DNA of 64,000 bases from Knoellia sp. Soil729. GTDB lineage: Bacteria; Actinomycetota; Actinomycetes; Actinomycetales; Dermatophilaceae. Both the position numbers and the translations under genes were made by a program. How positions within the stretch are numbered: position 1 is the first letter of the stretch; the number at the start of each line of letters is the position of its first letter. Where the stretch lies: the NCBI RefSeq assembly GCF_001427985.1, contig NZ_LMSA01000001.1, forward strand, positions 5,629 to 69,628, written 5' to 3'. Shown here piece by piece: positions 422 to 63,158 of this stretch. The notes beneath the pieces were generated by a model that saw nothing but the letters and a program-made list of their open reading frames with translations, was not told where the DNA came from and searched no databases.

Positions 422-486
422 ATCGGCCGTCGACTGGGGCCCAGGTGAGCACACGGCATACCGATAAGGGTTGTGCCACAACGGAT

Positions 487-1746
487 CTAGGGCTTGCGAG
501 CAGCTGCCATCGACTTGCGTCCGCGCCGGAGGATGGCCACCGAGTCGTGGAGGAAGTGCTCGTCGGCCAGGGGAAACTCGGGATCGGTGACCTTCTGGCC
601 GTTCACGGAGGCGCCGCCGTCGCCGATCGCGCGGCGTGCGGCGTTGCGGGAGTCGACCAGGCCGACGGCGACGAGGGCGTCGGTCATGGTCATGCCGGGA
701 GCCACCTCTCCGCCGGGCAGCTCGGCCGTGGCGTCGTGCAGGGTGCCGGCATCGAGGGTCGCGAGGTCGCCCTTGCCGAAGAGCGCCTCGGAGGCGGCCT
801 GCACCGCAGCAGTGGCCTCGGCTCCGTGCACGAGCGTGGTGACGTCGGCGGCCAGGATGCGCTGCGCGGCACGCCTGAACGGCTCCTCACTGACCTGGCG
901 TTCGAGCTCGGCGACCTCCTCCTGTGATCGGTCGGTGAAGATGCGCACGAGCTTGATCACCGAGGCGTCCTCGACGTTGAGCCAGTACTGGTAGAAGGCG
1001 TAGGGGCTCGTCATGTCGGAGGAGAGCCAGACGGCGTTGCCCTCGCTCTTGCCGAACTTGTTGCCGGCGGAGTCCGTCACCAGCGGCGTCGTGAGAAGGT
1101 GCACCGACTCCCCCTCCACCTTGTGGATGAGGTCGGAGCCGGCGGTGAGGTTGCCCCACTGGTCCTGGCCACCGGTCTGCAGCGTGCACCCGTGGGCGCG
1201 GTAGAGCTCGAGGAAGTCCAGCCCCTGCAGGATCTGGTAGCTGAACTCGGTGTAGGAGATGCCTTCGTCGGAGTTCAGCCGAGCCGCGACGGCGTCCTTC
1301 TTGACCATCTGGTTGACGCGGAAGTGCTTGCCGATGTCGCGCAGGAAGTCCAGCGCCGACATGGGCGAGGTCCAGTCGAGGTTGTTGACCATCATCGCGG
1401 CGTTCTCGCCGTCGAACTCGAGGAAGGGCTGGACCTGGTCCTGGATCCGCGCCACCCACTCGGCGGTCTGCTCCTTGGTCTTGAGCGTGCGCTCGGAGCT
1501 CGGGCGTGGGTCGCCGATGAGACCGGTCGAGCCGCCCACGAGGCAGATGACCCGATGACCCGCGCGCTGGAGGTGCCGCAGCACGATGAGCTGCACGAGG
1601 TTGCCGAAGTGGAGGGAGGGCGCGGTGGGGTCGAAGCCGCAGTACGCGGTGATCGGCCCGGCCGTCAGTGCCTCGCGCAGCGCGTCTTCGTCCGTCGTCT
1701 GGGCGACGAGCCCGCGCCACTGCAGTTCGGCAAGGATGTCTTTCAC
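487..1746 (-). CDS. tyrS: Tyrosyl-tRNA synthetase (class I)
   Basis: Charges tRNA-Tyr with tyrosine using ATP in the cytoplasm. The 419-residue length fits bacterial TyrRS. The Rossmann catalytic domain has the HIGH-type motif HFGN at 46-49 and the KMSKS-type loop KFGKS at 230-234. Between them lies the tyrosine/tRNA recognition stretch TGGQDQWGN at 191-199. The C-terminal 70 residues look like an S4 RNA-binding domain. The start is GTG (M-K-D-I-L-A-E-L). The gene is alone on its transcript side and runs towards the rRNA promoter. Upstream (1747-1859) it is divergent from the metallophosphoesterase gene. Confidence 0.97.
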   Translation of the reverse strand: MKDILAELQWRGLVAQTTDEDALREALTAGPITAYCGFDPTAPSLHFGNLVQLIVLRHLQRAGHRVICLVGGSTGLIGDPRPSSERTLKTKEQTAEWVARIQDQVQPFLEFDGENAAMMVNNLDWTSPMSALDFLRDIGKHFRVNQMVKKDAVAARLNSDEGISYTEFSYQILQGLDFLELYRAHGCTLQTGGQDQWGNLTAGSDLIHKVEGESVHLLTTPLVTDSAGNKFGKSEGNAVWLSSDMTSPYAFYQYWLNVEDASVIKLVRIFTDRSQEEVAELERQVSEEPFRRAAQRILAADVTTLVHGAEATAAVQAASEALFGKGDLATLDAGTLHDATAELPGGEVAPGMTMTDALVAVGLVDSRNAARRAIGDGGASVNGQKVTDPEFPLADEHFLHDSVAILRRGRKSMAAARKP

Positions 1747-1859
1747 AGGCGTCAGCCTGCCATGGGCGCCTCGGGGTCCGGTGCAGCGCTTCGGTGGCTG
1801 GGATGGCCGAACCCTTCCCCGTTCGCGGTGCAGGACCTCGGGAACTGGGAGACTGCCCC

Positions 1860-2635: not shown

Positions 2636-3629
2636 ATGGGTGAGTGGACGGCATACAGGGACTTCATCGCAGGACTGCCCAAGGCGGAGCTGCACGTGCA
2701 CCACGTCGGGTCGGCCCGGCCCGAGACGGTGGCCCGGCTCGCCGAGCGGCACCCTGACGCCGGTGTGCCCCAGGGCGTGGAGGCACTTCAGGACTTCTAC
2801 ACGTTCAGGGACTTCGACCACTTCATCGACGTCTACCTCGCCGTGGTCGGGCTCCTTCGGACGCCCGAGGACATCCACCTGCTCACCTACGAGGTGGCGG
2901 AAGGGCTTGCGGCACAGCAGGTGCGCTACGCCGAGCTGACCATGACCCCGTTCACGAGCGTGCGCATGGGCATCAGCATCGAGGCCTACACGGAGGCCAT
3001 CGAGGACGCTCGCCGTGCGGCGGAGCGCGACCACGGGATCGTCCTTCGCTGGATCTACGACATCCCCGGCGAGGCTGGGCTCGCCTCTGCCGACGCGACT
3101 CTCGGCTATGCGGTCGACCACGGTCCCGAGTCGCTCATCGGCTTCGGGCTGGGGGGACCAGAGGTTCCGCGGGTGCCGTTCAAGCCGCACTTCGACCGGG
3201 CCAGGGCGGCGGGGCTGCGGTCGCTGCCGCATGCCGGCGAGTCCACGGACGCGCAGTCGGTGTGGGACGCACTGGATGCACTCGGTGCCGAGCGCATCGG
3301 CCATGGCATCCGCTCGATCGAGGACCCCCTGCTGGTCGAGCGGCTTGTCGCAGAGCGCATCCCGCTCGAGGTGTGCCCGACGTCGAACATCGCGACCCGC
3401 TGTGTGGAGAGCCTGGCGGACCACCCCCTGCGGGGGCTGCGAGATGCGGGAGTCGTCGTCACCATCAACAGTGACGACCCGCCGATGTTCGGCACCACCT
3501 TGAACCATGAGTACGAGATCGCGGCCGAGCTGCTCGACCTCGACGAGAGCGGCCTGGCCGCGCTCGCGACGACGGCGGTCGACGTGAGCTGCGCCCCGGA
3601 CGACGTGAAGCAGCGCGTGCGGAGGGAGA

Positions 3630-3652: not shown

Positions 3653-6200
<2,548 letters not shown>

Positions 6201-7157: not shown

Positions 7158-8362
7158 GGGGTGGGCTCCTTGGCGATGGCGATGAGCGAGGGAAGCGCGG
7201 TGACGAACAGGTCGAGCTCATCGGCGGTGACGATGAGTGGTGGGACCAGGCGGACGGCGTCGGGCGCGACCGGGTTGACGAGGAAGCCTGCCTCTCGGGC
7301 CGCCGCGGCGATGCCCGCCGCCAGGTCCGATCGCAGGACGATGGCGCGCAACAGCCCACGGCCACGAACACCGACGATGTCCGGGTGGTCCAGACCGGCG
7401 ACAGCGTCGGCCAGGTGCTCACCCATGTCGGTGACGTGCTTGAGCAGGCGGTCACTCTCGATCGTCGAGAGGACGCTCAGGCCGGCTGCCGCGACGAGCG
7501 GGTTGCCACCGAACGTCGATCCGTGCTGCCCTGCGCTGAGGAGGCCGGTCACCTCTGGGCCGAACGTCACCAGGGCCCCGATCGGCAGGCCACCACCGAG
7601 CCCCTTGGCCAGCGTGATGGCGTCCGGGACGACGCCACTCTCGCTGAAGCCGAACCAGTCGCCCGTGCGACCGATGCCGGTCTGGACCTCGTCGATGATG
7701 AGCAGTGCACCCACCGCTGTGGTCACCTCGCGGGCTGCCTGCAGGTATGCCGGGTCCGCGACGATCGCTCCCGCCTCACCCTGGATGGGCTCGAGGACGA
7801 CGGCCGCGGTGTCGCTCGTGACGGCGGACCGCAGCGCCTCGATGTCGTTGTAGGGCACGTGGGCGACGCCCGGGATGAGGGGAGCGAACGGCTCGCGGTA
7901 GGCCGCCTTGTGGGTCAGGGCCAGCGCGCCGGTCGTGCGTCCGTGGAACGCGCCCTCGGCCGCGACGATGTCGGTGCGGCCCGTGCGGCGCGACAGCTTG
8001 ATGGCCGCCTCGATCGCCTCGGCGCCGGAGTTGGCGAAGAAGACACCGGACCCAGCAGGAGCCTGCGCGATCTCGAGGACCCGCTCGGCCAGCTCGACCT
8101 GGACCCGCGAGGTGTAGAAGTTCGAGATGTGGGCCATCTCGCCGACCTGCTTGGACACGGCGGCGACCAGGGCGGGGTGGTTGTGCCCCAACGCGTTGAC
8201 CGCGATGCCACCGACGAGGTCGAGGTAGCGCTTGCCGTCGAGGTCCCACACCCAGGCGCCGTCACCGCGCTCGAGCACGAGCTGCGGCGTGCCGAAGACC
8301 GTGATGAGCGAGTGCGCGTAGCGGTCGAGGACCGCCTGCTGCGACTCGGACTGATTGTTCAT
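7154..8362 (-). CDS. argD: Acetylornithine aminotransferase
   Basis: 402 residues. PLP-dependent class III aminotransferase that converts N-acetylglutamate semialdehyde to N2-acetylornithine; family members often also act in lysine synthesis. NSGAEA at 111-116 binds the cofactor phosphate, [11 protein letters not shown] at 224-234 holds the PLP-nitrogen aspartate, and the Schiff-base lysine is K253 in LAKGLGGG. Start ATG at 8362 (M-N-N-Q-S) overlaps the argB stop codon (ATGA). Longer in-frame readings upstream lie inside argB and are not coding. Confidence 0.96.
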
Positions 8363-9243
8363 GCGTCCTCCTCGATGAGGGTGCCGATGCCGTCCGAGGT
8401 GAATACCTCGAGCAGCAGGGAGTGGGGTTCGCGTCCGTCGATGACGTGGGCCTGGGGTACGCCGTTCTCCACGGCCCGGATGCAGGCCTCGAGCTTGGGG
8501 ATCATGCCCGCGTCGACCTGCGTGACCAGCTCGCGGGCACGGCTCAGGGGCAGGGTCGACAGGAGGGACGAGCGGTCCGGCCACGCGGCATACACGCCCT
8601 CGACGTCGGTGAGCACGACGAGCTTGCGGGCGCCGAGCGCCACGGCCAGGGCGGCAGCTGCGGTGTCGGCGTTGACGTTGAGGACCTGGCCCTCCTGGTC
8701 GAGGTCGGGGGCGATCGTGGACACGACGGGGATCCGGCCCGCATCGAGCAGGTCCATCACCGACTGCGTGTTGACCGAGACGACGTCACCGACCAGCCCG
8801 AGGTCCTCCTCCACGCCGTCGACGACGACCCCGCGACGGCGGGCACCGAAGAGTGCTCCGTCCTCACCCGAGAGCCCAACCGCGAGGGGCCCGTGCTGGT
8901 TGAGCAGGCCGACGAGCTCTCGACCGACCTGACCGGTGAGCACCATGCGCACGACGTCCATGACCTCGGGAGTGGTCACCCGGAGCCCGCCCTTGAACTC
9001 GCTCTCGAGCCCGAGGCGGTCGAGCATCGCCTTGATCTGCGGTCCGCCGCCGTGCACGACGACCGGACGGAGGCCGGCGTAGCGCAGAAAGGCGATGTCC
9101 TGCGCGAAGGCCAGCTTGAGCTCGTCGTCGACCATGGCGTTGCCGCCGTACTTGATGACGATCAGGGCACCACGGAAACGCTCGAGCCATGGGAGCGCCT
9201 CGACGAGGGTGCTCGCCTTGAGCCTGGTCAGGTCGTCGGTCAC
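8359..9243 (-). CDS. argB: Acetylglutamate kinase
   Basis: 294 residues. Phosphorylates N-acetylglutamate, usually the arginine-inhibited step in organisms with cyclic acetyl recycling. Amino acid kinase fold: KYGG at 31-34, HGGGPQI at 64-70, [11 protein letters not shown] in the middle and a LTDVEGVY nucleotide-binding loop. The N-terminal helix before KYGG (about 25 residues) is the type that mediates hexamer formation and arginine inhibition. Start GTG at 9243 has GAGGA about eight bases upstream, which overlaps the argJ stop. Gap to argJ is 10 bp. Confidence 0.95.
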
Positions 9244-10818: not shown

Positions 10819-11858
10819 GGCGCCACCCCCGATCCGAGAAGGCCGGTCGTCTCCGGGAGACCGACGGCGAGGTTGAGGCACTGGACGGCTGCGCCGGCGG
10901 TGCCCTTGGCGAGGTTGTCGATGGCCGCGACCGCGATCACTCGGCCGACGCGCTCGTCGACGGTCACCTGCACGGTCACGTGGTTGCTCCCGACCACGTG
11001 CGCAGTGGCGGGCCAGGCTCCGGGCTCCAGGAGGTGGACGAACGGCTCCTCCGCGTAGGACGCGCGCCAGGCCTCACGGATGTCTGCTGTCGATGCGCCC
11101 GGGGCGACCCTGGCCGTGGCGGTGGCGAGGATGCCGCGGGCCATCGGCGCCAACGTGGGGGTGAACGAGGCCGCGACGGGGACGCCCGCCGCGGCACCGA
11201 GGTTCTGCTCGATCTCCGGAGTGTGCCGGTGCACTCCGCCGACGCCGTAGGGCGACATGGAGCCGATGACCTCGGAGCCGAGCAGGTGTGGCTTGAGCGA
11301 CTTGCCCGCTCCGGAGGTTCCCGAGGCGGCAACGACCACCACGTCATCCGGCTCGACGACCCCCGCCGCCAGGCCAGGTGCCAGCGCCAGGCTCACGGCC
11401 GTCGGGTAGCACCCGGGAACGGCGACACGGTGGCGGCCCTCAATGTCGGTGCGTGCGCGACCCCCGCCGGCGAGTGCGAGCTCCGGGAGCCCGTAGGCCC
11501 AGGACCCGGCATACGGGGTGTCGTAGAAGGTCGTCCAGTCGGTCTCGCTGCGCAGCCGGAAGTCGGCGCCGCAGTCGACGATGACCGTCTCCTCGTCCAG
11601 GCCTTCGGCCACGGCAGCCGAGTGCCCGTGGGGCAGGGCCAGCACGACGACGTCGTGACCGGAGAGGGTCTCGGGCGTGGTCTCGGCGAGAACCCGGTCA
11701 CCCAGTGAAAAGAGGTGTGGGTGAACGGATCCGAGCAGCGCGCCGGCATTTCCGCCGGCCGTGACCGATCCGATTTCAACCTCAGGGTGCTGCAGCAGCC
11801 ATCGGAGGACCTCACCACCGGCGTAGCCACTGGCACCGGCGACCGCAACTCTCAGCAT
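10815..11858 (-). CDS. argC: N-acetyl-gamma-glutamyl-phosphate reductase
   Basis: 347 residues. NADPH-dependent third step of arginine synthesis. NADP-binding GASGYAGGE at 8-16; catalytic cysteine C150 in VPGCYPTA; later HRHTPEIEQ carries the conserved histidine. First gene of the minus-strand arginine operon. ATG at 11858 (M-L-R-V-A-V-A-G) is chosen by family N-termini. An in-frame ATG six bases upstream (11864) lies inside the ArgR-like box. The start is so close to the predicted promoter/operator that the mRNA may be leaderless. Confidence 0.96.
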   Translation of the reverse strand: MLRVAVAGASGYAGGEVLRWLLQHPEVEIGSVTAGGNAGALLGSVHPHLFSLGDRVLAETTPETLSGHDVVVLALPHGHSAAVAEGLDEETVIVDCGADFRLRSETDWTTFYDTPYAGSWAYGLPELALAGGGRARTDIEGRHRVAVPGCYPTAVSLALAPGLAAGVVEPDDVVVVAASGTSGAGKSLKPHLLGSEVIGSMSPYGVGGVHRHTPEIEQNLGAAAGVPVAASFTPTLAPMARGILATATARVAPGASTADIREAWRASYAEEPFVHLLEPGAWPATAHVVGSNHVTVQVTVDERVGRVIAVAAIDNLAKGTAGAAVQCLNLAVGLPETTGLLGSGVAP

Positions 11859-13554: not shown

Positions 13555-14193
13555 GTGGGCCCGGCAGAGCTCGCCGCGCTCGTCGCCCGTGAGGCGGATG
13601 CCGGTGTCGCCGGCGCCCTCCGCGCGTTCGACGCCTCTGGTGCGCTCACCGTCGACACCGTCATCGGTCGGATCGGATCGAGACCCGCAGCGGACTCGAC
13701 GCCGTGGGAGGACGTCGTCTGGCAGGCGGAGGTGGTCATGCGCCCATCGGGCACCGTTCGCGACCTCCCTCCCACGACCACCGACGCCCCCGCGAACCTC
13801 GACGTGCCCCAGGTCATCGCCGCCCTTGCGGTTGACGCGCTTCGCGGTGTCGGCGACCGGTGGCGCGCTGCCCTGGATCGACGCGGCATCTCCACGGTAG
13901 GTGACCTCGCGTCGGTCTCTCCGGCGTCACTTGCGGCCTGGTCGCGCGAGAGTGACGGCGGGTATGCCGTGCAGCTCGTCGCGCGCGCACGCTCCTGTGC
14001 GGGTGCGTGGCCCAGGGTCGACCGGGGTGATGCCCGCACCCTGCTCGCCGTGTCGGAGTCCGACCCCGGGGACGTCTCCGCCTGGCCCCCCGGCAGCCGC
14101 GCCGAGGCTCACCTGCTCTGGGCAGCGTGCCTGCGCCTACGGGCCGCCCTGGACGACGACGTCCTGGCCCGGATCACCGTCAACGGAACCTGA
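13555..14193 (+). CDS. Helix-hairpin-helix protein of unknown function, third gene of the cassette
   Basis: 212 residues. The recognisable part is a helix-hairpin-helix-like module at about 94-130: DALRGVG, then RAALDRRGISTVGDLASVSPASLAAW, a pattern common in DNA-binding and protein-interaction HhH domains. The N-terminal 90 residues and C-terminal helices (ALDDDVLARITVNGT) match nothing I know. GTG at 13555 is chosen: it follows the previous stop by one base and has GAGG six bases upstream. It is followed by a perfect inverted repeat (14206-14270). Co-transcription with the two paralogues is very likely. Confidence 0.8.
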   Translation: MGPAELAALVAREADAGVAGALRAFDASGALTVDTVIGRIGSRPAADSTPWEDVVWQAEVVMRPSGTVRDLPPTTTDAPANLDVPQVIAALAVDALRGVGDRWRAALDRRGISTVGDLASVSPASLAAWSRESDGGYAVQLVARARSCAGAWPRVDRGDARTLLAVSESDPGDVSAWPPGSRAEAHLLWAACLRLRAALDDDVLARITVNGT

Positions 14194-14285: not shown

Positions 14286-15017
14286 TCAGGCGAGGGGGTC
14301 GTCCTCTCCCCAGGTCTGGAGGGAGAGGGTGCGGTCCAGCTCGTCCAACCCGGCCTGCGCCCGGGCCCGCAGTGACTCCACGGTGTCCGCGCCGGCGCGG
14401 ACCAGGCGCCCACTCCACTCATCGAGCTCGCCGCGGGCCATGGCCAGCAACAACGCACTGACCTCCTCCGGCGCGGTCCACTCGGTGCGGCCGCGATGAG
14501 CCTGCATCGACTCCGTCATGTCGGTGCGCACCACGCCCGGAGCCAGATCGAAGACCAGCGCCGTGCGGTCCGGGCCGAGGCCCAGTCCTGAGGTGATGCG
14601 CGCCAGGGCTCCCTTGCTCACGTTGTAGGCGGTGGCGACATCGGAGTTCCTGTAGGCGGAACCGGAGTTGACGTTGACGATCCGGCCCGTCCCGGCCGTG
14701 AGGTGCGGCAGCACGGCGTGCGTCATGAGGTAGGGACCACGCACGTTGGTCTCCATCGTCGCCCACCACTCGTCGGGGTCGCTGCGCTCCAACGACACCT
14801 CCGCGTCGATGACCCCAGCGTTGTTGACGAGCAGGTCGATGCGCCCGTGGCGAGCCACGACATCAGCCACCCAGGACCTCACGGCGCCCGGATCGGTCAC
14901 CGAGGCCGTGGAGCGCGAGCCACGCTCCACGGCATACCCGTTGTCCTGCAGGGCATCCGCGAGGTGCGCACCGATGCCACGGGAGGCTCCGGTGACGATG
15001 GCGACGAGCTGGCTCAT
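14286..15017 (-). CDS. SDR-family oxidoreductase
   Basis: 243 residues. Classical short-chain dehydrogenase: TGASRGIG at 9-16 binds NAD(P), NNAG at 65-68, and the catalytic YNVSK at 131-135 with serine in NSGS (117-120). The substrate cannot be predicted. ATG at 15017 overlaps the pheT stop codon (ATGA), so it is translated from the pheST transcript; I know of no functional link. The C-terminal 50 residues are rich in Glu/Arg helices. Confidence 0.9.
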   Translation of the reverse strand: MSQLVAIVTGASRGIGAHLADALQDNGYAVERGSRSTASVTDPGAVRSWVADVVARHGRIDLLVNNAGVIDAEVSLERSDPDEWWATMETNVRGPYLMTHAVLPHLTAGTGRIVNVNSGSAYRNSDVATAYNVSKGALARITSGLGLGPDRTALVFDLAPGVVRTDMTESMQAHRGRTEWTAPEEVSALLLAMARGELDEWSGRLVRAGADTVESLRARAQAGLDELDRTLSLQTWGEDDPLA

Positions 15018-40031: not shown

Positions 40032-40065
40032 GCCTTCACGGTATGCCGTGGACCCGGCGTGGTGC

Positions 40066-44241: not shown

Positions 44242-44652
44242 TCAGCCCTGCTTCCACGGGAGGCCGGCGACCTTCCAGCCGGCCACGGTGCGTTGCCCGG
44301 CTCGGTCGTGCGGGCCCTCAAAACCGTCGAGGACGTTGTATGCCGGTCCGAGACCTGCCGCCGTGGCCGCCTCCGCCGCCGCGACGGACCTCACGCCCGA
44401 TCGGCAGAGGAAGTAGATCGGCGCACCATCGGCGAGGCCTGCCTGCCTCAGCTCGTCGACGAAGGTGTCGTTGATGCTGCCGTCCGGGGACCGCTGCCAC
44501 TCCACGAGGATCGGCTGGTGCTCCGAGTCCAGCTGTGGGACACCGACCTGGGCCCACTCGGCTCGCGTGCGCACGTCGACGAGGGCAGCGCCCTGGCCCT
44601 GGGTCACCGCGGCGAACGCTTCGGCGGGGGTGACGTCACCGGCATAGGTCAT
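44242..44652 (-). CDS. Rhodanese-domain sulfurtransferase
   Basis: 136 residues, single rhodanese domain. LVDVRTRAEW near residue 25 and active-site loop FLCRSGVRS with the sulfur-carrying Cys. Probably hands sulfur to or works alongside MetZ. ATG at 44652, with TACGCT (44659-44664) 6 bases upstream as a possible leaderless promoter. The 42-bp gap to the zinc-ribbon gene allows this. Confidence 0.9.
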   Translation of the reverse strand: MTYAGDVTPAEAFAAVTQGQGAALVDVRTRAEWAQVGVPQLDSEHQPILVEWQRSPDGSINDTFVDELRQAGLADGAPIYFLCRSGVRSVAAAEAATAAGLGPAYNVLDGFEGPHDRAGQRTVAGWKVAGLPWKQG

Positions 44653-44694: not shown

Positions 44695-45432
44695 TCAGAG
44701 ACCGGACTCGGCCGTGCGCACGAGGATTCGGCGGCACTCCTCGCACCGGTGCACCTCGTCCTGCGGTGCCGCCTTGATGTCGCGCAGGGCAACGGGATTG
44801 AGCTCCAGCTGGCAGCCACCGCAGCGTCGCTGACGCAGCGCGGCCGCACCCGTGCCGCTCGTCGCGCGGATCTTGTCGTAGAGCGCGACAAGCTCGACAC
44901 CCACGGACCTCACCAGCTCCTCGCGAGGCGCACCCACCTCGGCCGCTTCGGTGTCGAGCTCGGCGAACCGCTGGTCACGAGCCGTCACCAGCTCGGTGAG
45001 CCGGTCGGTGATCTCGGCCCGGCCGCGCTCGAGCTCGGCGACGTCGGACTGCACGGCCTCGGCGCGCTCCATCACCTCGAGCTCGACCTCTTCAAGCTCT
45101 GCCTGACGACGGGCCAGGGACTCGAGCTCGTGCTGGATGGCGGTGAGGTCCTTGGCGGAGCCGACGCCGGAGTCGAGACGCTGCTGGTCGCGCGTGGCGC
45201 GGTCGCGAACCTGCTGCACGTCCCCGTCGGCCTTGATGACCTCGCGCTGGATGTCACTGAGCTCCGTGCGCGAACGCACCAGCTGGTCGTCGAGCAGCGC
45301 GGCCTTGCCCTCGAGGTCCGCGATCTCGGCAAGCTGTGGGAGGGTCCTGCGGGCGTGCTCGAGCTGCGACAGGCGGGTGTCGAGGGCCTGGAGGTCGAGC
45401 AGCTTGGCCTGTTGGCCCGGTTCGGCTTTCAC
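44695..45432 (-). CDS. Coiled-coil C4 zinc-ribbon protein (DUF164/zf-RING_7)
   Basis: 245 residues. Long antiparallel coiled coil (about 10-185) rich in Leu/Glu/Arg heptads, then a C-terminal zinc ribbon: CGGC...CEEC (about 205-235). Homologue of M. tuberculosis Rv2229c; no established biochemical function known to me. GTG at 45432 overlaps the Nif3-like stop (GTGA). This gene pair is conserved in actinobacteria. Confidence 0.9.
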   Translation of the reverse strand: MKAEPGQQAKLLDLQALDTRLSQLEHARRTLPQLAEIADLEGKAALLDDQLVRSRTELSDIQREVIKADGDVQQVRDRATRDQQRLDSGVGSAKDLTAIQHELESLARRQAELEEVELEVMERAEAVQSDVAELERGRAEITDRLTELVTARDQRFAELDTEAAEVGAPREELVRSVGVELVALYDKIRATSGTGAAALRQRRCGGCQLELNPVALRDIKAAPQDEVHRCEECRRILVRTAESGL

Positions 45433-46256
45433 GGCATACCTCCGGCTGTTGTTGCCCCGACGGTGAAGGTCCACGGGTCGGTGCGCACTGTGCTGATGTC
45501 GACCTCCACCCTAAGGGCAGCAACCAGAGCGTCGCGCAGGGTCGGCAACCACACCGACTCGCTCGACCAGTGCCCCGCGTCGACGAGGTAGGGCGGGCCA
45601 CCACGCGCCTCCTCTCGCGCCTCGAGAGCGGGATGGTGGCGCAGGTCGGCCGTGACGTAGACGTCGGCCCCGCACGCCCGGACCGCGTCGAACTGGTCGT
45701 CGCCCGCTCCCCCGAGGACGGCGACCGTCTCGACGACCGCGTCGGCGGGACCCGCGACACGCAGGCCCGCAGCGGCAGCGGGCAGGGCGGCATGCAGGGA
45801 GCTGGCGAACGCGGCCAAGGTCGTGGGTGACGCGAGTCGCCCGACCCGCCCGAGCGGCTGGTCCTCGACGTTCACGAGCGGCTCGGTCTCGGACAGACCG
45901 GCCGCGGCCGCGAGCGCCTCGCAGACCCCGGCAGACGCGACGTCGGCGTTGGTGTGGGCGACATAGAGTGCGATGTCCGCCACGACGAGGCCGGTGACGC
46001 TGGCGCCCTTCGCGGTCGTGGTGGCCACGGAGTGGATGCCGCGCATGAGCAGCGGGTGGTGGGTGAGCAGCAGGTCGGCCTGGCTGGCACGCGCCTCCTC
46101 GATGACCTCGAGCGTCGGGTCCAGGGCGAGCAGGATGCGCTCGACGGGCTGGTCGAGGTCACCGGTGACCAGGCCGACCCGGTCCCAGGACTGCGCGGTC
46201 TGCGGAGGGTAGAGGCGTTCCAGGACGGCGACGACGTCGCGCAGGACAAGGCTCAT
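45429..46256 (-). CDS. Nif3-like dinuclear metal centre protein
   Basis: 275 residues. NIF3/DUF34 family, proposed GTP cyclohydrolase I type 2-like or metal chaperone proteins; role unsettled. Metal ligands: LLLTHHPLLMRGI, HTNAD and, near the C-terminus, DAGHWSSE. The N-terminus (VVAVLERLYPPQTAQSWDRVGLVTGD) is characteristic and fixes the ATG at 46256. The start codon follows the 3' end of tRNA-Val with only one base between, so there is no room for a leader or RBS after tRNA processing. Confidence 0.92.
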   Translation of the reverse strand: MSLVLRDVVAVLERLYPPQTAQSWDRVGLVTGDLDQPVERILLALDPTLEVIEEARASQADLLLTHHPLLMRGIHSVATTTAKGASVTGLVVADIALYVAHTNADVASAGVCEALAAAAGLSETEPLVNVEDQPLGRVGRLASPTTLAAFASSLHAALPAAAAGLRVAGPADAVVETVAVLGGAGDDQFDAVRACGADVYVTADLRHHPALEAREEARGGPPYLVDAGHWSSESVWLPTLRDALVAALRVEVDISTVRTDPWTFTVGATTAGGMP

Positions 46257-47334: not shown

Positions 47335-48942
47335 CTACCTCTCGTCGGTGTGTGCTGGGGCCCCTAGTTGACTAGGAACTTCGCCGGTCACGCAAGCGCT
47401 TCGCACGAATTGGCGTGCATCACGGGCGCGCGCGGCCTCGTCGACCAGCAGCCGGGTGGCGGTGCCGATCTCGAGATGCGGGACGGTGACGCCCACCGGG
47501 CCGGGAGTCGACACGAGCGTCACGGTCGCCAGGTCGAGGCGCTGGTCGAGGGGTCCCTGCGACAGGGTGAGCGACTGCACGCGGGCGTGGGGCATGACCG
47601 ACACCCGTCGCGACAGCCGGCCGGCGCGGACCATGAGCGAGTGCCGTGACACGGTGAAGCCCGACCGCTGCCAGCTGAGGGCGTCGAAGGTGCGCGCACG
47701 CGGCGACACCAGGGTCCAGCCACCGTGCTCTCCGTCACCGAGTGCGGCCGTGCGCAGCTCCGACTCCGACAGCGCCGGGTCGAGGAGCGTGAGGACCGCG
47801 AGGGCCTGGTCGAGCGTTCCGACGGGGAGCACCGTCGTCTCGTCGTCGGTGTCGCCATCGCCGTCGTGGGCGATGCCGGCGACGTTGACCCTCACCCGCC
47901 ACCAGCCCAGTGGTCGCCACCACAGCGGTTGCACCATTCCGACGGCCTGGATGCGGTGCAGGGGGATGGTCGTCGTGCGCTTGTCGGTGAGCCCGTGCTG
48001 GACCCGCGCGGCGGTGCCCGTCTCGGCCAGGTGGAAGTTGCCGTGCTTGAGGAGCTCGCCGACGCGGTTGACCGCGATGCCCAGCACGAGGGGGCCGAGC
48101 GCGGGCAGGGCGATGGCGGCGCCGGTGAGCGCCTCGAACGTGGACCCGTAGGTCGCGAGGGCCACGCTGCCCGCCACGAGGGCGAGCACGCCCAGGAAGA
48201 TCGTGCCGCCGTGCAGGATCGTGGCGACGAAGAGCCGGGAGTTGGGCACCCGCAGCACCTCACGCCCCTCGCTGGCCTCGAAGCCCGGGGCGCCGGGAAC
48301 GCCCCGGGGGCCGGGAATGGCCTGGCTGCCGGAAACCGGGTCGCCCGGAAGCGCGACCGGTGGCTCGTCCCGGCGACCGGCGAGGGCGAGCAGCTCGTGA
48401 CGGACCTCGTCGGCGCGGCCTGCACCGAGGAAGGCCAGCTTGAGCTGGGCGTCGCCGCCACCCGCCGACTGGACGATCACCTGCGAGAGCCCGGTGAGCT
48501 GCGCGAGGAGGGGCCGGCTGATCTCGATGGCCTGGACACGTTCGAGGGGGACCTGGCGGTGTTCGCGGAAGATCCACCCCTTGCGGAACTCCAGCTGCCC
48601 CTCGGCCACCCGGAACTTCGCGAACCGCCAGGAGAGCCACCCCGCGAGGCCGATGAGCAGCATGCCGGCGACAACCACCGCACTGGCGACCAGGGAGTGC
48701 TCGAACAGGACGGCGAGACCGTCACGCAGCCCTTGCTCACTCTGCTGGTCACCACCCCCGTCCCCACCACCCACGCTCCGGAAGACGTCGTCGACGAGCT
48801 GCGACGCGGCATACCCGAGGATGGCGATGCCGACCACCCCGCCACGCACGATGGGAGACAACGGGTGGAGGTGCTGCCACTGGTGCAATCCGAGGTCTCG
48901 CACGGCAGGCAGGGGCTCGGACGTGCGGTCCGGTGCTGTCAC
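47335..48942 (-). CDS. Bacterial PH-domain membrane protein, YdbT-like
   Basis: 535 residues. Several bPH_2-type domains separated by pairs of membrane helices (about 35-52 and 88-110; again about 250-300). Repeated pattern of a Trp/Leu-rich strand followed by P-L-x-R-[IV]-Q-x-[IV]: VPLERVQAIEI, IPLHRIQAVGM, VMPHARVQSLTL. Homologous to B. subtilis YdbT. GTG at 48942 overlaps the upstream PH gene stop (GTGA). A much longer reading through aceE on this strand is not coding. Confidence 0.9.
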   Translation of the reverse strand: MTAPDRTSEPLPAVRDLGLHQWQHLHPLSPIVRGGVVGIAILGYAASQLVDDVFRSVGGGDGGGDQQSEQGLRDGLAVLFEHSLVASAVVVAGMLLIGLAGWLSWRFAKFRVAEGQLEFRKGWIFREHRQVPLERVQAIEISRPLLAQLTGLSQVIVQSAGGGDAQLKLAFLGAGRADEVRHELLALAGRRDEPPVALPGDPVSGSQAIPGPRGVPGAPGFEASEGREVLRVPNSRLFVATILHGGTIFLGVLALVAGSVALATYGSTFEALTGAAIALPALGPLVLGIAVNRVGELLKHGNFHLAETGTAARVQHGLTDKRTTTIPLHRIQAVGMVQPLWWRPLGWWRVRVNVAGIAHDGDGDTDDETTVLPVGTLDQALAVLTLLDPALSESELRTAALGDGEHGGWTLVSPRARTFDALSWQRSGFTVSRHSLMVRAGRLSRRVSVMPHARVQSLTLSQGPLDQRLDLATVTLVSTPGPVGVTVPHLEIGTATRLLVDEAARARDARQFVRSACVTGEVPSQLGAPAHTDER

Positions 48943-52395: not shown

Positions 52396-52434
52396 CTGCG
52401 GTGAGACGGCGTTGGCGTATGCCGTCCGCTCGCC

Positions 52435-53088: not shown

Positions 53089-54311
53089 TGGCGACCTCCC
53101 AAGGGGAGATGGGCAGACAGTGCCGTGCCCTCGCCCGGCGCCGACTCGACGGCGAGGTCTCCCCCGAGCTCGCGCAGCCGCGCCTTGCTCGACGGCAGGC
53201 CGTAGCCACCATGGCTGTACCCGCCCGGTCTCTCGGTCAGCGCTCCGGGGTCGAAACCACGGCCGTCGTCCACCACCTCCAGCAGGACCCGGTCGTCGAG
53301 GCGCGAGAGGGTCACGACCACTCTGCTCGCCTCCGAGTGGGCGCGTACGTTGGCCAGTGCTCCCTGCGCGGTCCGCAGCAGCGCGACCTCGAGAGCCGTC
53401 GGCAAATGAAGTGCCTCACCCTCGACCCGTAGCTCGGTGCGGACGCCCGTCTCCTGATCCAGGGTGCCCAGGATGCGCTCGAGGGCCTGCACCAGCCCGT
53501 TGTCCGTCAGCGACGACGGGGCCAGGGCGCCGACGACACCGCGAGCCTCCGCGAGGTTGGCGCTGGCGGTTGCCTCGACCTGCGCGAGCAGGTCGGCCAG
53601 AGCCCCGTCCTCGCTGAGGACCGCTCGGCCTCGAGCCAGCAGCACGATCGACGAGAACCCCTGGGCAAGGGTGTCGTGGATGTCCCGGGACAGGCGCCCC
53701 CGCTCCTGGAGGACCCCGGCCTCGCGTTGCGCCGACGCGAGCTCGTCGTGCAACGTCGCCATCTCGTCCTGGGTCCTCACGAGCGATTCGACGAGGCGCT
53801 GGCGCTCCACCGCATCGCGGACCAGCTGGTGTTGGCCCCTCGAGAGGGCGAAGGCGAACAGTGCGCCGATGGCCGGACCGAGCACCTCCGCCACGGTCAG
53901 CTCTCCCGTCGCGAACCACGGGCGCCAGATGACCACGGCCAGGACGACGACGCTGAGGGCGGCTGCCCGGCGGACGGCGAAGAAGTGCGGGATGAGCAGC
54001 CACAGGCTGAAGGCGAGCCAGACGTTCTCGGTGGAGACCAGGACGAGGGCGAACCAGCAGACCACGAGCCCGAGCAGCCACCACCGGCCCGCCGTGCTGA
54101 CCGGCACCACGCCGGCGGGGCCGGAGGACGGATCCGGTGCGCGGCCAGCCCACCGCAGGCCCACGGCATACCAGGCAAGAAGGACGGTGGTGGCGACGAT
54201 GAGCGGAAGGCGTGGTGCGCCGGTCGACCACGAACGTGCCACGCAGACGGAGGCCAGCACACCGAAGAGGACGTGCTGGACCACCGTCAACGAGCGCATG
54301 ACGCGGTGCAT
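53085..54311 (-). CDS. Membrane sensor histidine kinase (HisKA_3)
   Basis: 408 residues. Five or six membrane helices in the first 160 residues with almost no extracellular loops, coiled linker 160-205, phospho-acceptor H212 in SRDIHDTLAQG, HATPase with DDGRGFDPG and GGYGLPSSKARL. Of the type of intramembrane-sensing kinases such as LiaS/DesK. ATG at 54311; TAGCGT (54319-54324) 7 bases upstream could be a leaderless promoter. Second gene of the MMPL-HK-RR set. Confidence 0.93.
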   Translation of the reverse strand: MHRVMRSLTVVQHVLFGVLASVCVARSWSTGAPRLPLIVATTVLLAWYAVGLRWAGRAPDPSSGPAGVVPVSTAGRWWLLGLVVCWFALVLVSTENVWLAFSLWLLIPHFFAVRRAAALSVVVLAVVIWRPWFATGELTVAEVLGPAIGALFAFALSRGQHQLVRDAVERQRLVESLVRTQDEMATLHDELASAQREAGVLQERGRLSRDIHDTLAQGFSSIVLLARGRAVLSEDGALADLLAQVEATASANLAEARGVVGALAPSSLTDNGLVQALERILGTLDQETGVRTELRVEGEALHLPTALEVALLRTAQGALANVRAHSEASRVVVTLSRLDDRVLLEVVDDGRGFDPGALTERPGGYSHGGYGLPSSKARLRELGGDLAVESAPGEGTALSAHLPLGGRQ

Positions 54312-56564: not shown

Positions 56565-57698
56565 TCAATGGGTGAGGAAGGCCTTGCGGGCGGCGACGCA
56601 GATGTCGGGCTGGTCGCAGAAGACGCCGTCGACACCCGTGTCGAGGAAGCGGCCCACCTCGTCGCCCAGGCGGCCGTGCGCCGCGGGGTCGGACCCGGTC
56701 CGGTAGTCCACGGGCAGGAAGGAGTTCTCGGCGCGGAAGGTCCACACCACGACCTCGAGTCCGGCCCGGTGCGCGTCCGCGACGAGTGAGGTCGGGGAAC
56801 CCAGGGTGCCGTCGCCGGCGATCGGGATGACTCGGCGCTTGTCGACGCCGAGACCGTCGATGTCGCCCGCGAGGTCCTTGAGGCTGGCCGGTCGGAGGAG
56901 GTCGGTGTAGGTCCGTGGATCCCCCTTGACCGCAAGGTCGTAGGGGCTCCCGGTCTCGTTGACGAGCAGGATGAGCTTGGCCCGGTAGCCCAGCTCGTTG
57001 TCGAGCCGGACGAGCGGGGCGAGCTCGAAGCTCTGCACCCACAACGGGGCGTCCGGGCGGTTGAGACCGTGCGCGGTGAGCGCCTGCATGAGCGCCTTCT
57101 CGGGGTCGAAGCCGGCGGCGTGCAGCGCGGTCGAGTGCTTGATCTCGGGGATGACCCCCACCGTGCGACCCGTCTGCTCACTGAGCTGCTCGCGCAGGTC
57201 CAGCACCTCCTCGAGGGTCGGCACCTCGAACCTGCCGTCGTAGCCCGCGCTCTCGGGGCGCAGCTGTGGGAGGCGCTCACGGGCCCGCAACGTCTTGAGC
57301 TCGGCCAGAGTGAAGTCCTGCACCCACCACCCCGTCACCGGCTTGCCGTCGAGCTTCCTCGTGGTCCTGCGCCCCGCGAACTCCGGATGGCTGGCCACGT
57401 CGGTCGTTCCACCGATCTCGGGTTCGTGACGGTCGACGAGTATGCCGTCGCGCGTCATGACGAGATCCGGCTCGATGTAGTCGGCCCCCTCCTGGACGGC
57501 GAGCCGGTATGCCGCGAGCGTGTGTTCCGGACGGTAGCCCGACGCGCCGCGGTGCGAGTACACGACGGGCTCGCTGACGATCGCGTGTTCACCGGTGACC
57601 TTCGGTGGGGTCTGAGTGGCCGTCGAGCACGACACCAGCACGGGCGAGGACAGGGCGAGCCCCGCAGCCACGGACAGGGAGATCAGAGCTCGCTTCAC
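56565..57698 (-). CDS. Secreted glycerophosphodiester phosphodiesterase
   Basis: 377 residues. Releases glycerol-3-phosphate from glycerophosphodiesters. N-terminal signal with lipobox-like LVSC (C24), so probably a lipoprotein. Catalytic SHRGASGYRPEHT at 48-60, DLVMTRDGILVDRHEPEIGGTTD and IPEIKH follow, as in GlpQ. GTG at 57698 is preferred: TAGGTT is 7 bases upstream (leaderless). A TTG nine bases further upstream is possible but overlaps that hexamer. Confidence 0.92.
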   Translation of the reverse strand: MKRALISLSVAAGLALSSPVLVSCSTATQTPPKVTGEHAIVSEPVVYSHRGASGYRPEHTLAAYRLAVQEGADYIEPDLVMTRDGILVDRHEPEIGGTTDVASHPEFAGRRTTRKLDGKPVTGWWVQDFTLAELKTLRARERLPQLRPESAGYDGRFEVPTLEEVLDLREQLSEQTGRTVGVIPEIKHSTALHAAGFDPEKALMQALTAHGLNRPDAPLWVQSFELAPLVRLDNELGYRAKLILLVNETGSPYDLAVKGDPRTYTDLLRPASLKDLAGDIDGLGVDKRRVIPIAGDGTLGSPTSLVADAHRAGLEVVVWTFRAENSFLPVDYRTGSDPAAHGRLGDEVGRFLDTGVDGVFCDQPDICVAARKAFLTH

Positions 57699-57815
57699 GA
57701 GACCCAACCTAGGGCTGTCTGCGCGTCAGCTCCGGATCCGGTGCGCGACGGGTGCAGGCGTGTCTCGACCGGCGAGCCGGACGGCATACCCTGTATTTGT
57801 GGTTATGCGTTCGGC

Positions 57816-59259: not shown

Positions 59260-59263
59260 GAAC

Positions 59264-59597: not shown

Positions 59598-59667
59598 GGA
59601 GCCACCCCGCTCCGAACGGGCAACCTGTAGGCCATCGTTGTGCACGGCATACAAATAGACTCCGCAG

Positions 59668-60894
59668 GTGGCCACCTCGCGAACGCGTCCCTCGGCAGCG
59701 ACACGACGCCGGGTCGAGCGCACCGCAGGCGACCTCGGCGCGGCGGCGGTGCAGCAGATGGAGAGCGACCACGAGTGGTACCGCAACCTGCCACCGGAGG
59801 AACGCTCCTGGGTCGGGCTCATCGCCCAGGCCGGCATCAGGTCGTTCATCGAGTGGTTCACCGGCAGCCAGGACAAGGCCCACATCACCGCTGACGTCTT
59901 CGGCACGGCGCCGCGCGAGCTGACCCGGTCGATCAGCCTCGGGCAGACCCTGGACCTCATGCGCACCGTCGTCGACGTGGTCGAACGCGAGTCGAGCGGG
60001 CTGGCGGCGCGCGGCGACGAGACCAAGGTGCGCGAGGCGGTCCTGCGCTACAGCCGCGAGATCGCGTTCTCGGTCGCCGAGGTCTATGCCCACGCCGCCG
60101 AGGCGCGCGGCGCCTGGGATGCCCGGCTCGAGGCCCTCGTCGTCGACGCGGTCATCCGCGGGGAGGCCGACGACTCCATGCAGTCACGCGCGTCGGCCCT
60201 CGGATGGGGCACCACCACCAACGTCTGCGTCATCGTGGGGTCCACCCCCGAGGCCGGAGCCTCACACGTCGTCGACGAGCTGCACCGCAGCGCCAAACGC
60301 CACGGCGTGGAGGTGCTCGTCGCGATCCACGGCCGTCGCGTGGTGAGCATCGTGGGCCGGGTCACCGACGCCCTGCGGACGGCGTCGCACCTCGGCGAAC
60401 ACTTCGGGGACGGCCCGATCGTGGTGGGTCCCGTCGTCCCGCACCTGTATGCCGCGGGGCGCAGCGCGCGTGCCGCGCTCTCGGGCCATACGGCGGCCTT
60501 CGCCTGGCCCGCCGCTCCTCGGCCGGTCCGCAGTGACGACCTGCTCGCCGAACGGGCCCTGCTCGGTGACCTGCCGGCTCGCGCGGCCCTCGTCTCGACC
60601 GTCTATGCGCCGTTGTCCGCCAGCAGCGGGCGCAACCTCCTCGAGACCGCTGCGGCCTATCTCGACGGCGGCCTGGGGCTGGAGGGCACGGCCCGGGCGC
60701 TGTTCGTCCACACCAACACGGTGAGGTACCGACTGGGCAAGATCGCCGAGTCCATCGGCTACGACCTCACCGACCCGCACGATGCGCAGACCGTGCGGCT
60801 CGCGCTGGCCTACGGACGAGTAGCCCCGGAGCCGTCGTTCCGGATGACGCGACTCCCCGAGCCGCCGCTGGAGCCCGGCCCGCACGAATTGTAG
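59668..60894 (+). CDS. fasR: PucR/CdaR-like regulator of fatty acid synthesis (FasR-like)
   Basis: 408 residues. N-terminal helical region to about 150, GGDEF-like central part, C-terminal PucR-type HTH_30 (about 325-395: LLETAAAYLDGGLGLEGTARALFVHTNTVRYRLGKI). The position directly upstream of fabD-fabH-acpP-fabF matches FasR of Streptomyces coelicolor, an activator of that operon, and Rv2242 in mycobacteria. GTG at 59668 follows TAGACT (59656-59661) by 6 bases, so the mRNA is probably leaderless. Confidence 0.88.
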   Translation: MATSRTRPSAATRRRVERTAGDLGAAAVQQMESDHEWYRNLPPEERSWVGLIAQAGIRSFIEWFTGSQDKAHITADVFGTAPRELTRSISLGQTLDLMRTVVDVVERESSGLAARGDETKVREAVLRYSREIAFSVAEVYAHAAEARGAWDARLEALVVDAVIRGEADDSMQSRASALGWGTTTNVCVIVGSTPEAGASHVVDELHRSAKRHGVEVLVAIHGRRVVSIVGRVTDALRTASHLGEHFGDGPIVVGPVVPHLYAAGRSARAALSGHTAAFAWPAAPRPVRSDDLLAERALLGDLPARAALVSTVYAPLSASSGRNLLETAAAYLDGGLGLEGTARALFVHTNTVRYRLGKIAESIGYDLTDPHDAQTVRLALAYGRVAPEPSFRMTRLPEPPLEPGPHEL

Positions 60895-60972: not shown

Positions 60973-62151
60973 GTGCTTGTCATCGTGTGCCCTGGACAGG
61001 GCTCCCAGACGCCCGGCTTCCTCACCCCCTGGCTCGACATCCCGGGCCTGCGAGAGCGGATGGGCTGGTTGTCCGCCGTCGCGGGCATGGACCTCGTCAG
61101 ACACGGGACCGAGTCCGACGAGGAGACCATCAAGGACACGGCCATCGCCCAGCCCCTCATCGTCGCCTCGGGCCTCGTCTCGCTGCTGGCGCTCTTCGAG
61201 CACCCGGCCGACGGTTTCCGTCTCGTCGGAGCAGGAGCGGGCCACTCCGTCGGCGAGATCACCGCTGCCGCCGCCGGCGGTGTCATCTCGGCAGAGCAGG
61301 CCATGGTCTTCGTCCGCGAGCGCGGCCGGGCGATGGCCGAGGCCAGCGCGGTGCAGCCCACGGGCATGAGCGCGGTCATGGGCGGTGACCCCGACGAGGT
61401 CATCGCGACCATCGAGCGCCACGGGCTCACCCCCGCCAACATCAACGGTGCCGGCCAGGTCGTCGCGGCCGGGACGATGGACCAGCTCGCCGCCCTGGCT
61501 GCTGAGCCCCCCGCCAAGGCGCGGGTCATCCCGCTCAAGGTGGCCGGCGCCTTCCACACCGAGCACATGGCTCCGGCGGTCGATCTCCTGGACCGCTACG
61601 CCAAGGCCATGTCGACGCACGACGCACGGGTCCCCTTGGTGTCCAACCGTGACGGCGCCGTCGTCCACAGTGGGCGCGAGGTGCTGCGCCGGCTCGTCAG
61701 CCAGGTGAGCAACCCGGTCCGCTGGGACCTCACCATGCAGACGTTCACCGAGCTCGGCGTCACGGGCATCATCGAGGTCCCGCCGGCCGGCGCCCTGACC
61801 GGGCTCGCCAAGCGCGCCCTCAAGGGTGTCGAGATCCTGGCGCTGAAGTCGCCGGACGACCTCGAGCAGGCCCACCGCATGGTCAAGGAGCACGCGGTCT
61901 CGGGCGGCGTCGCCCAGGACCCGACGTGGCGGCTGGTCATCAGCCCCGCCAAGGGCATGGTCTCGTTCACCGCGACCGAGGTCGGCGCGCAGGTCGAGAC
62001 CGGCAGCGTCATCGCGACCGTCGGCACCCTGCGTGACAGCTACGACGTCGTCGCCCCCCACGGTGGCCGCATCGTGGAGTGGCTCGTCGAGGACGGCGAC
62101 CCTGTCTCTCCCGGCCAGCCCATCGTCCGTCTCCACCCCCAGGAAGGCTGA
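60973..62151 (+). CDS. fabD: ACP S-malonyltransferase with C-terminal biotinyl/lipoyl-like domain
   Basis: 392 residues, about 80 longer than usual. Residues 1-310 are the acyltransferase: PGQGSQ at 8-13, nucleophile S92 in GAGHSVGE, and QPLIVASG and GAFHTEHM with the catalytic His. Residues 316-392 resemble a biotinyl/lipoyl hammerhead (VETGSVIATVG, APHGGRIVEWLVEDGDPVSPGQPIV), but the modified Lys position of the usual M-K-M reads L-R-D (353-355). So it should not be biotinylated or lipoylated. I recall similar tails in some other Micrococcales. GTG start at 60973. Confidence 0.93.
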   Translation: MLVIVCPGQGSQTPGFLTPWLDIPGLRERMGWLSAVAGMDLVRHGTESDEETIKDTAIAQPLIVASGLVSLLALFEHPADGFRLVGAGAGHSVGEITAAAAGGVISAEQAMVFVRERGRAMAEASAVQPTGMSAVMGGDPDEVIATIERHGLTPANINGAGQVVAAGTMDQLAALAAEPPAKARVIPLKVAGAFHTEHMAPAVDLLDRYAKAMSTHDARVPLVSNRDGAVVHSGREVLRRLVSQVSNPVRWDLTMQTFTELGVTGIIEVPPAGALTGLAKRALKGVEILALKSPDDLEQAHRMVKEHAVSGGVAQDPTWRLVISPAKGMVSFTATEVGAQVETGSVIATVGTLRDSYDVVAPHGGRIVEWLVEDGDPVSPGQPIVRLHPQEG

Positions 62152-62156
62152 GCCGC

Positions 62157-63158
62157 ATGCCCGGCGTCATCAGCACCAGGACCGGCGCGGCCCACGCGCG
62201 CATCACCGGCATCGGTGCCTACCGTCCCCGACGCGTCGTGCCCAACTCCGAGCTCGTCGAGGCGATCGACTCGTCCGACGAGTGGATCCAGGAGCGGTCC
62301 GGCATCAAGACCCGCCACTTCGCCGGTGAGGGCGAGAGCGTCATCGACATGTCCGAGTTCGCCACTCGCGACGCCCTCGAGATGGCGGGCCTGGAGGCGG
62401 GTGAGGTCGACGCGGTCGTCCTCGCCACGGTCTCGCACCCCTACCAGACGCCCGCCGCCGCACCGGCGCTCGCGGACCGGATGGGGATGGACAAGCCGGT
62501 TGCCTTCGACATCTCGGCAGCGTGCGCCGGCTACTGTCACGGCATCAGCCTGGCCAACGACATGGTCCGCGGTGGCAGCGCCCGCAACGTCGCCGTCATC
62601 GGCGTCGAACGGCTCTCGGACTTCACGAGCCGGACCGACCGCGGGACGGCCTTCATCTTCGGTGACGGCGCGGGCACCGCGATCGTGTCCGCCGCCGAGG
62701 AGCCCGGCATCGGGCCCACGGTCTGGGGCTCCGAGGGTGACAAGTGGGACGTCATCGCCCAGAACGAGAGCTGGATCGACGTCCACGAGCAGAAGCTCGA
62801 CTGGCCCACCATCGGCATGCAGGGCCAGCGCGTCTTCCGCTGGGCGGTCTGGAGCATGGCTCCGGTGGCGCAGCGGGCCCTCGACGTCGCGGGAGTGAGC
62901 GTGGACCAGCTCGACGCTTTCATCCCCCACCAGGCCAACGTCCGCATCATCGACGCCCTGTGCAAGCAGCTCAGGATGCCCGAGCACGTTCCGGTGGCCC
63001 GCGACATCATCGACTCGGCCAACACCTCGGCGGCTTCGGTCCCCCTGGCGACCGAGCGAATGCTGCGGGAGGGCCTCGCCCCACGAGGCGGACTCGCGCT
63101 GCAGATCGGCTTCGGTGCCGGCCTGTCGTATGCCGCCCAGGTCATCACCCTTCCCTAG
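62157..63158 (+). CDS. fabH: Beta-ketoacyl-ACP synthase III
   Basis: 333 residues. Condenses acyl-CoA with malonyl-ACP to start fatty acid synthesis. Catalytic Cys C123 in SAACAGYCHG, His in IPHQANVRI and Asn in DSANTSAAS; GFGAGLSYAAQ at the C-terminus. The W-x-x-x-x-x-G-I-x-x-R segment SDEWIQERSGIKTRHF is present. ATG at 62157, 5 bases after the fabD stop. The starter preference (branched or straight chain) is not evident. Confidence 0.96.
   Translation: MPGVISTRTGAAHARITGIGAYRPRRVVPNSELVEAIDSSDEWIQERSGIKTRHFAGEGESVIDMSEFATRDALEMAGLEAGEVDAVVLATVSHPYQTPAAAPALADRMGMDKPVAFDISAACAGYCHGISLANDMVRGGSARNVAVIGVERLSDFTSRTDRGTAFIFGDGAGTAIVSAAEEPGIGPTVWGSEGDKWDVIAQNESWIDVHEQKLDWPTIGMQGQRVFRWAVWSMAPVAQRALDVAGVSVDQLDAFIPHQANVRIIDALCKQLRMPEHVPVARDIIDSANTSAASVPLATERMLREGLAPRGGLALQIGFGAGLSYAAQVITLP

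Follow-up and report, generated by a model that had tools for sequence, protein, structure and literature searches.

The octamer CGGCATAC is iterated throughout a 64,000-nucleotide stretch of the Knoellia sp. Soil729 genome (contig NZ_LMSA01000001.1, positions 5,629 to 69,628; hereafter the window), and we propose, with confidence that stands about even, that it is the core of a self-recognition tag working like DNA uptake sequences, perhaps together with ComEA/ComEC and Tad/Flp pili. The exact count in the window is 33 copies, 17 on the plus and 16 on the minus strand, spanning 454-63135, in agreement with an earlier reading made from the letters alone (the sequence-only reading), whereas the expectation is 0.53 copies and the maximum in 100 dinucleotide shuffles was 3. 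The heptamer GGCATAC occurs 34 times and 33 of these are part of CGGCATAC, also as that reading had stated. CGGCATAC ranks first among the over-represented 8-mers of the window under an order-1 model, and the Markov-model count that had been called for places it first again in 464 kb of the genome (266 copies versus 11.4 expected, order-3 model). The whole genome (3.61 Mb in 8 contigs) contains 1083 forward and 1055 reverse copies, 2138 in all or one per 1.69 kb, versus 51 + 38 = 89 for the reversed pattern used as control. The iteration is confirmed, and its excess is larger than the more than tenfold first reported. CGGCATAC differs from its reverse complement and is therefore non-palindromic.

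The finer statistics are based on 864 kb of one contig, where 525 sites (258 on the plus and 267 on the minus strand) are placed according to their orientation. Pairs in the same orientation occurred at 0.23-0.58 of the random frequency in bins from 100 to 1500 bp and returned to 1 near 2 kb, whereas opposite pairs scattered about 1 (bins 0.35-1.60, 100-2000 bp), with an excess below 40 bp that comes from hairpins. A codon-constrained null was used for comparison, in which sites could fall in intergenic DNA or, within genes, on real Ala-Tyr/Tyr-Ala positions, every coding site being assigned to one of the two main phases. Under this null, 97 same-orientation pairs were observed at 100-1500 bp versus 227.4 (standard deviation, sd 14.5), opposite pairs numbered 233 versus 228.0 (sd 14.9), and neighbouring sites were opposite in 359 of 524 cases versus 270.0 (sd 11.5). 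The sequence-only reading had taken equal strand use as an argument against a polar signal; this argument fails, because same-orientation copies avoid each other and opposite copies do not. As double-strand uptake by one tag would be expected to make any second tag redundant, redundancy confined to one orientation suggests that the reader tracks one strand.

The same rule was observed elsewhere. Genomes were drawn evenly from a larger group, the family set comprises 36 (G000 to G035), and named genomes were located by a ComEC-profile scan, of which the best 80 include Knoellia, Phycicoccus, Janibacter, Terrabacter, Humibacillus, Ornithinimicrobium and other neighbours. The counts of opposite and same orientation were 161 and 88 in G003, 79 and 52 in G015, 48 and 32 in G002, and 193 and 107 in the 22 named loci that have 7 copies or more (K. 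subterranea and K. remsis omitted). In G033, which uses the variant CGGCATCC, the counts were 59 opposite and 29 same, with same-orientation pairs at 0.20-0.30 of random at 250-1000 bp and with both kinds of pair at 3 versus 5.9 at 100-250 bp. Counts in 20-kb segments showed a variance/mean ratio of 0.75, i.e. even spacing, and the two widest gaps over the 864 kb, 9.9 and 10.6 kb, are about as exponential spacing predicts.

Two other schemes of spacing were tried and rejected. If redundancy ignored orientation, as expected for double-strand uptake, opposite pairs should be depleted as well, and their number (233 versus 228.0) contradicts this. Directional import from the motif predicts that one of the two opposite arrangements is depleted; they were found at about 0.92 and 1.14 of random, summed over 100-2000 bp, and this scheme was set aside.

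Codon pairs, site-by-site conservation and an extended flank show that selection acts on the DNA itself. According to our own simple gene caller, 395 of the 525 sites are coding and 130 are intergenic or at a gene edge, corresponding to 1.87 per kb in intergenic DNA versus 0.50 per kb inside genes. The coding copies are distributed over NNG-TAT-GCC-G (187), NCG-GCA-TAC (129) and other phases (79). GCA-TAC was chosen in 129 of 228 Ala-Tyr pairs after NCG versus 3 of the 467 remaining Ala-Tyr pairs, and TAT-GCC in 188 of the 234 Tyr-Ala pairs with G on either side. Codon bias, which the sequence-only reading had considered an unlikely cause, is excluded by this test, as is a protein motif.

Conservation was determined in well-aligned DNA only, a choice that favors conserved regions (83.7 kb against G003 at 82.8% identity, and 47.8 kb against G002 at 81.1%). 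Aligned CGGCATAC sites were unchanged in 53 of 59 cases in G003 and in 26 of 32 in G002. Eight control 8-mers were kept at 0-25% against G003 except for ACGGCTAC (5 of 6), with about 13 of 61 in total, and seven controls against G002 gave about 8 of 29 (both totals summed from rows). One-off variants of CGGCATAC showed no general excess (592 versus 516.5 expected), the main exceptions being CGGCATAG (50 versus 6.8) and CGGCCTAC (87 versus 39.8). The figures for Neisseria in PMC3630211 are raw and may contain perfect copies as well, for which reason they were rejected as a yardstick for these variants.

Among pairs less than 40 bp apart in the 864 kb, 20 of 21 were inverted, and arm complementarity judged by eye extended past the motif in at least 9 of the 12 close pairs inspected; inverted pairs forming hairpins are described for uptake-sequence terminators in passages of PMC7811141 and PMC3388099. 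The extended site is approximately AGGYGRGCRSM-CGGCATAC-V, T-rich beyond. The 85 isolated intergenic sites gave this 5′ preference, A(-11) G G Y G R G C R S M(-1), with T enriched at +8 and +11. Over all 525 sites, measured against a codon-phase null, A stands out at -11 and -1 and T at +6 to +12, and T is avoided at -1 and +1. Thirty intergenic contexts of the dialect in G033 show a similarly arranged flank (Y -8, G -7, R -6, C -4) with differences in bases (C -5, C -1), and the flank of other genera is weaker or different.

The number of CGGCATAC copies was 939-4724 in 21 of the 36 family genomes, 196-293 in 3 and 11-95 in 12. All nine genomes of genus g1 were high (1971-3277 copies, about 480-910 per Mb), and among five further family genomes from the class survey four were high (1192-2476) and one had only 7. 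Nothing comparable was found in 351 distinct non-family genomes from surveys covering the order (22 genomes) and the class (337); the densest (G054, about 62 per Mb) was below its own reversed control, and the largest clear ratio of motif to control was 170 versus 27 (G351). A quick ComEC tree built from 30 of the 36 genomes requires 5 changes in the state of having more than 150 copies per Mb, 4 of them forced by well-supported branches, versus a mean of 8.6 after shuffling, and the near-empty G009 adjoins genus g1 (support 90).

In unbiased 8-mer counts of named loci and of stretches of relatives, one-base variants surfaced beside the core or replacing it. CGGCATCC occurs 3949 times in G033 (control 289, CGGCATAC just 40) and 3816 times in G024 (control 392, CGGCATAC 235), CCGCATAC 1204 times in G027 (control 107), and CGGCATTC 3135 times in G020 (control 27) alongside 1025 copies of CGGCATAC. 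CGGCATCC is also raised in the named loci L146 (13 versus 1.8) and L178 (11 versus 1.3), and G011 and G012 additionally use CGTCATAC and CGCCATAC. G009 is a weak case, with 1336 copies of CGGCATCC versus 260-976 in genomes without that dialect, and CCGCATAC is raised in G019 (433, control 461) and G025 (459, control 312) but little above the controls. No dialect was found in 11 of the 36 genomes (G010, G014, G016, G017, G018, G021, G022, G026, G030, G031 and G035) when three variants were counted genome-wide, with G010, G021 and G026 scanned for others over at most 6 kb. The comparison with related genera that the sequence-only reading had recommended thus shows a tag confined to the family, absent in some relatives and present as dialects in others.

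Two repeats of another appearance were noticed in these counts. In G010 (C17:129291-130273), CCGCATAC occurs 17 times with a period of 60-61 bp in a single orientation, resembling a CRISPR array. Three Kribbella loci (L188, L195 and L205) showed an excess of CGNCGTAC-type 8-mers, up to 24 versus 2.4 in 20 kb, possibly codon-driven.

The lack of strand bias was borne out when replication was considered. In twenty 20-kb stretches of G003, with the origin assumed near the contig start, motif counts were 68/70 and 65/66 in the two contig halves, balanced regardless of the plus-strand coding share (66% and 46%). In this sample the motif is over-represented yet not polarized relative to replication as Chi would be, and the strong replichore skew of FtsK-orienting polar sequences (KOPS) is absent. 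One of the stretches (L268, G003:C1:690001-710000) had 2 copies versus 9-19 in the other 19; this single case may be a conjugative island, to judge from genes for a TIR-domain protein and a Tad-like protein and from a TrbL/VirB6-like match that stays below the cut-off.

ComEC was found in all 36 family genomes and DprA in all 41 genomes searched. Of 41 named family loci, with or without the tag, 39 have ComEA next to ComEC, the misses being L159 (Janibacter massiliensis, tag-free) and L167, which begins inside comEC; inspection by eye of the ComEA C-termini in tag-bearing genera showed no obvious extra domain. PilT, the model for type IVa pili, was above the cut-off in one of the 36 genomes, with split matches just below it in one more. 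Two Tad/Flp clusters are present in G000 and likewise in the tag-free G009, G016 and G018, and the tag-free G014 gave no match to PilT-family or TadE models. The pair in G000 can be likened to the two tad clusters whose Flp pili are required for transformation in the actinobacterium Micrococcus luteus, as stated in part of PMC4322843. G014 aside, no gene searched tracks the tag (ComEC, PilT, RecC, TadE and PDDEXK over 36 genomes, DprA over 41, and ComEA, ComEC and Tad neighbourhoods by comparison).

The sequence-only reading had offered an uptake sequence, a nucleoid-protein site or a methylation target. The first is best supported, considering copy number, the lack of bias between replichores, enrichment in intergenic DNA and in hairpins, and dialects limited to the family; the second is kept as a rival and the third fares poorly, as described below. 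In common with the DNA uptake sequence (DUS) and the uptake signal sequence (USS), the tag is a short non-palindromic word in the order of at least 1000 copies per genome, shows no strand bias between replichores, is enriched in intergenic DNA and as inverted hairpin pairs, and has dialects differing by lineage, with four relatives carrying one-base dialects in 1204-3949 copies. A type IVa pilus machine carrying the receptor, as expected for DUS/USS, was not found (PilT in one of 36 genomes; ComP itself was not searched), and spacing is not indifferent to orientation. Because neither the orientation rule nor the missing type IVa pilus suits the known members, we call the tag uptake-like and do not file it in the DUS/USS family.

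If the tag acts in this manner, tagged DNA from relatives would be preferred in uptake and recombination, as with the uptake sequences of Neisseriaceae and Pasteurellaceae. The reader would belong to a transformation route for which ComEA, ComEC, DprA and two Tad/Flp clusters are encoded. Each incoming strand would need its own tag, so that another copy on that strand within about 1.5 kb would be redundant and one on the opposite strand would not, and the dialects would shift when the reader protein changes.

Several observations weigh against this proposal. ComEC, ComEA, DprA and Tad clusters occur in tag-free relatives too, and a reader protein was not found among the genes searched in the family genomes. 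Spacing is governed here by orientation, unlike in known uptake sequences, which function irrespective of orientation according to parts of PMC3388099 and PMC1939737. Same-orientation pairs in the 864 kb of G000 show no depletion at 40-100 bp (9 versus 9.6 expected), G012 does not follow the spacing rule (35 opposite, 42 same, with a same-orientation excess at 40-250 bp), and CGGCATTC shows no visible rule in one 20-kb locus (L142; 6 opposite, 6 same). Possible depletion in acquired DNA is seen at a single island-like stretch, L268, where the match to a conjugation gene is weak. Finally, open-access PubMed Central yielded no paper on natural transformation under the family name (genus names were not searched).

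Somewhat more tentatively, the tag may be the first family-wide self-DNA code with dialects in Actinobacteria and, being read on one strand only, would combine properties of an uptake sequence (self tag and dialects) with those of Chi (a licence read from the strand). Each strand of incoming or broken DNA would then need its own tag to be spared and recombined. Among the papers listed from open-access PubMed Central, none reports such a tag in the family by title or abstract start, and uptake sequences are described for Neisseriaceae and Pasteurellaceae in the part of PMC7811141 considered here. If an actinobacterial family (Knoellia, Phycicoccus, Terrabacter and Ornithinimicrobium among others) has a tag with dialects, sequence-based mate recognition would have arisen separately in monoderm, Tad/Flp-encoding bacteria. 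The orientation limit on spacing offers a quantitative signature, computable for any genome including those with known DUS, USS or Chi, that may separate strand-read from double-strand-read signals, and the dialects are a ready-made co-variation experiment for identifying the reader protein.

The spacing rule is also the prediction for a polar reader, and this brings in a Chi-like signal, which we consider unlikely although it fares best among the rivals. Here a helicase-nuclease of the AdnAB kind would enter at a DNA end, read the motif one-way on one strand and switch from degradation to recombination; each orientation would serve ends from one side, with each set evenly spaced and the two sets independent. 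An adjacent pair of PDDEXK nucleases, which we presume would fit AdnA/AdnB, is present in 35 of 36 genomes (the exception is the draft G001 in 230 contigs), but tag-free genomes have it as well, and RecC, found in 10 of the 36, is missing from all nine genomes of genus g1. A flank some 11 bp long that has its own consensus, and dialect changes in single genera, look more like a double-strand receptor. Chi sites are likewise commoner in the core genome, but replichore polarity, a criterion applied to Chi, is absent here (both points after a portion of PMC8022716).

A site for a nucleoid or chromosome-organizing protein with a directional action, such as stopping a translocase from one side only, would account for the even spacing (variance/mean 0.75) and for a flank resembling an extended binding site. 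We regard it as improbable, since a housekeeping nucleoid role is hard to reconcile with a motif whose dialect is replaced at thousands of sites and which close relatives lack. A non-palindromic 8-mer could be the target of a Type I-like or BREX-like methylase; methylation or restriction targets are normally not enriched, however, and a role of this kind, to which we assign very little probability, leaves the enrichment, in-place conservation and orientation-limited spacing unexplained. That the motif arises from codon usage, from a protein motif or mobile repeat, or from sequencing adapters is hardly credible: although CGGCATAC as a string occurs in 2606 papers and lies within an Illumina primer printed in one abstract, the codon-pair test, the several coding phases and intergenic sites, flanks that change from one window site to the next, matching positions in other species and the other codons used by a dialect all oppose it.

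The copies in the window, with genes called as above, are as follows; 6 of the 33 are intergenic or at a gene edge.
454..461, plus strand, intergenic or at a gene edge; its 5′ flank AGGTGAGCACA matches the extended consensus
2649..2656, plus strand, coding
3708..3715, minus strand, coding
4124..4131, plus strand, coding
6006..6013, plus strand, coding
7745..7752, minus strand, coding
8586..8593, plus strand, coding
11507..11514, plus strand, coding
13962..13969, minus strand, coding
14930..14937, plus strand, coding
16885..16892, plus strand, coding
19896..19903, plus strand, coding
21471..21478, minus strand, coding
25440..25447, plus strand, coding
28028..28035, minus strand, coding
31313..31320, minus strand, coding
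32576..32583, plus strand, coding
36661..36668, minus strand, coding
37663..37670, minus strand, overlapping the start of the called gene 37665-38528
38009..38016, plus strand, coding
40041..40048, minus strand, intergenic, between the 3′ end of the RNase P RNA (40065-40439, minus strand) and the start of the called gene 39381-40031 (minus strand), 10 bp off
42458..42465, minus strand, coding
44338..44345, minus strand, coding
45432..45439, plus strand, at the 3′ end of the called gene 45429-46256 (minus strand)
48807..48814, plus strand, coding
52417..52424, minus strand, intergenic
54164..54171, plus strand, coding
57440..57447, minus strand, coding; forms a same-orientation pair with the 57507 copy, 67 bp apart, a distance range (40-100 bp) in which such pairs show no genome-wide depletion
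57507..57514, minus strand, coding
57782..57789, plus strand, intergenic
59645..59652, plus strand, intergenic
60447..60454, minus strand, coding
63128..63135, minus strand, coding

The sequence-only reading had placed copies at gene starts at 37663, 40041 and 45432; this holds for the first two, while the third is at the 3′ end of a called gene. The RNase P RNA is of class A, and a tRNA is located at 46258-46330 on the minus strand.

A second repeat was noticed in the window, consisting of inverted arms ACTKATTGCSCGTTNGGCCAGT that are mostly about 53 bp apart and change in step (14208-14268, 56494-56554 and 63517-63587, with a half-site near 52388). The 864 kb contain 17 matches to ACTTATTG and 22 to ACTGATTG, 36 of the 39 intergenic, and a composed palindrome pattern gave no match, the element being two separated arms. 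We take it to resemble the repetitive extragenic palindrome or bacterial interspersed mosaic element (REP/BIME) type. In the first 40 kb of G030 (L034-L035), several 9-mers, CAGTTCGAC and CGACGGTCA among them, are repeated 24-32 times, suggesting a repeat array.

Among known systems, the DUS of Neisseriaceae is read by ComP, a type IV minor pilin, as stated in part of PMC6370729. The tag resembles it in being a short non-palindromic word in thousands of copies with no replichore bias and with hairpin pairs, and in having dialects one or a few bases apart between genera of one family; unlike the DUS it is actinobacterial, PilT exceeds the cut-off in a single genome of the family set, and spacing is orientation-limited. 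The USS of Pasteurellaceae has an extended site with an AT-rich flank, whereas the flank of the tag is mainly 5′ and GC-rich, and the core sequence and the dependence of spacing on orientation differ too. A core with an extended site, even spacing and terminator hairpins are common to both, as far as sections of PMC1939737 and PMC7811141 describe the USS. Chi, read by RecBCD/AddAB, is likewise an over-represented octamer, and the spacing of the tag is consistent with such a polar reader; the tag differs in having no replichore polarity, in the absence of RecC from genus g1, and in its dialects and losses among genera of the family. HIP1 of cyanobacteria is a highly iterated octamer as well, but it is a palindrome, whereas CGGCATAC is non-palindromic and its orientation matters.

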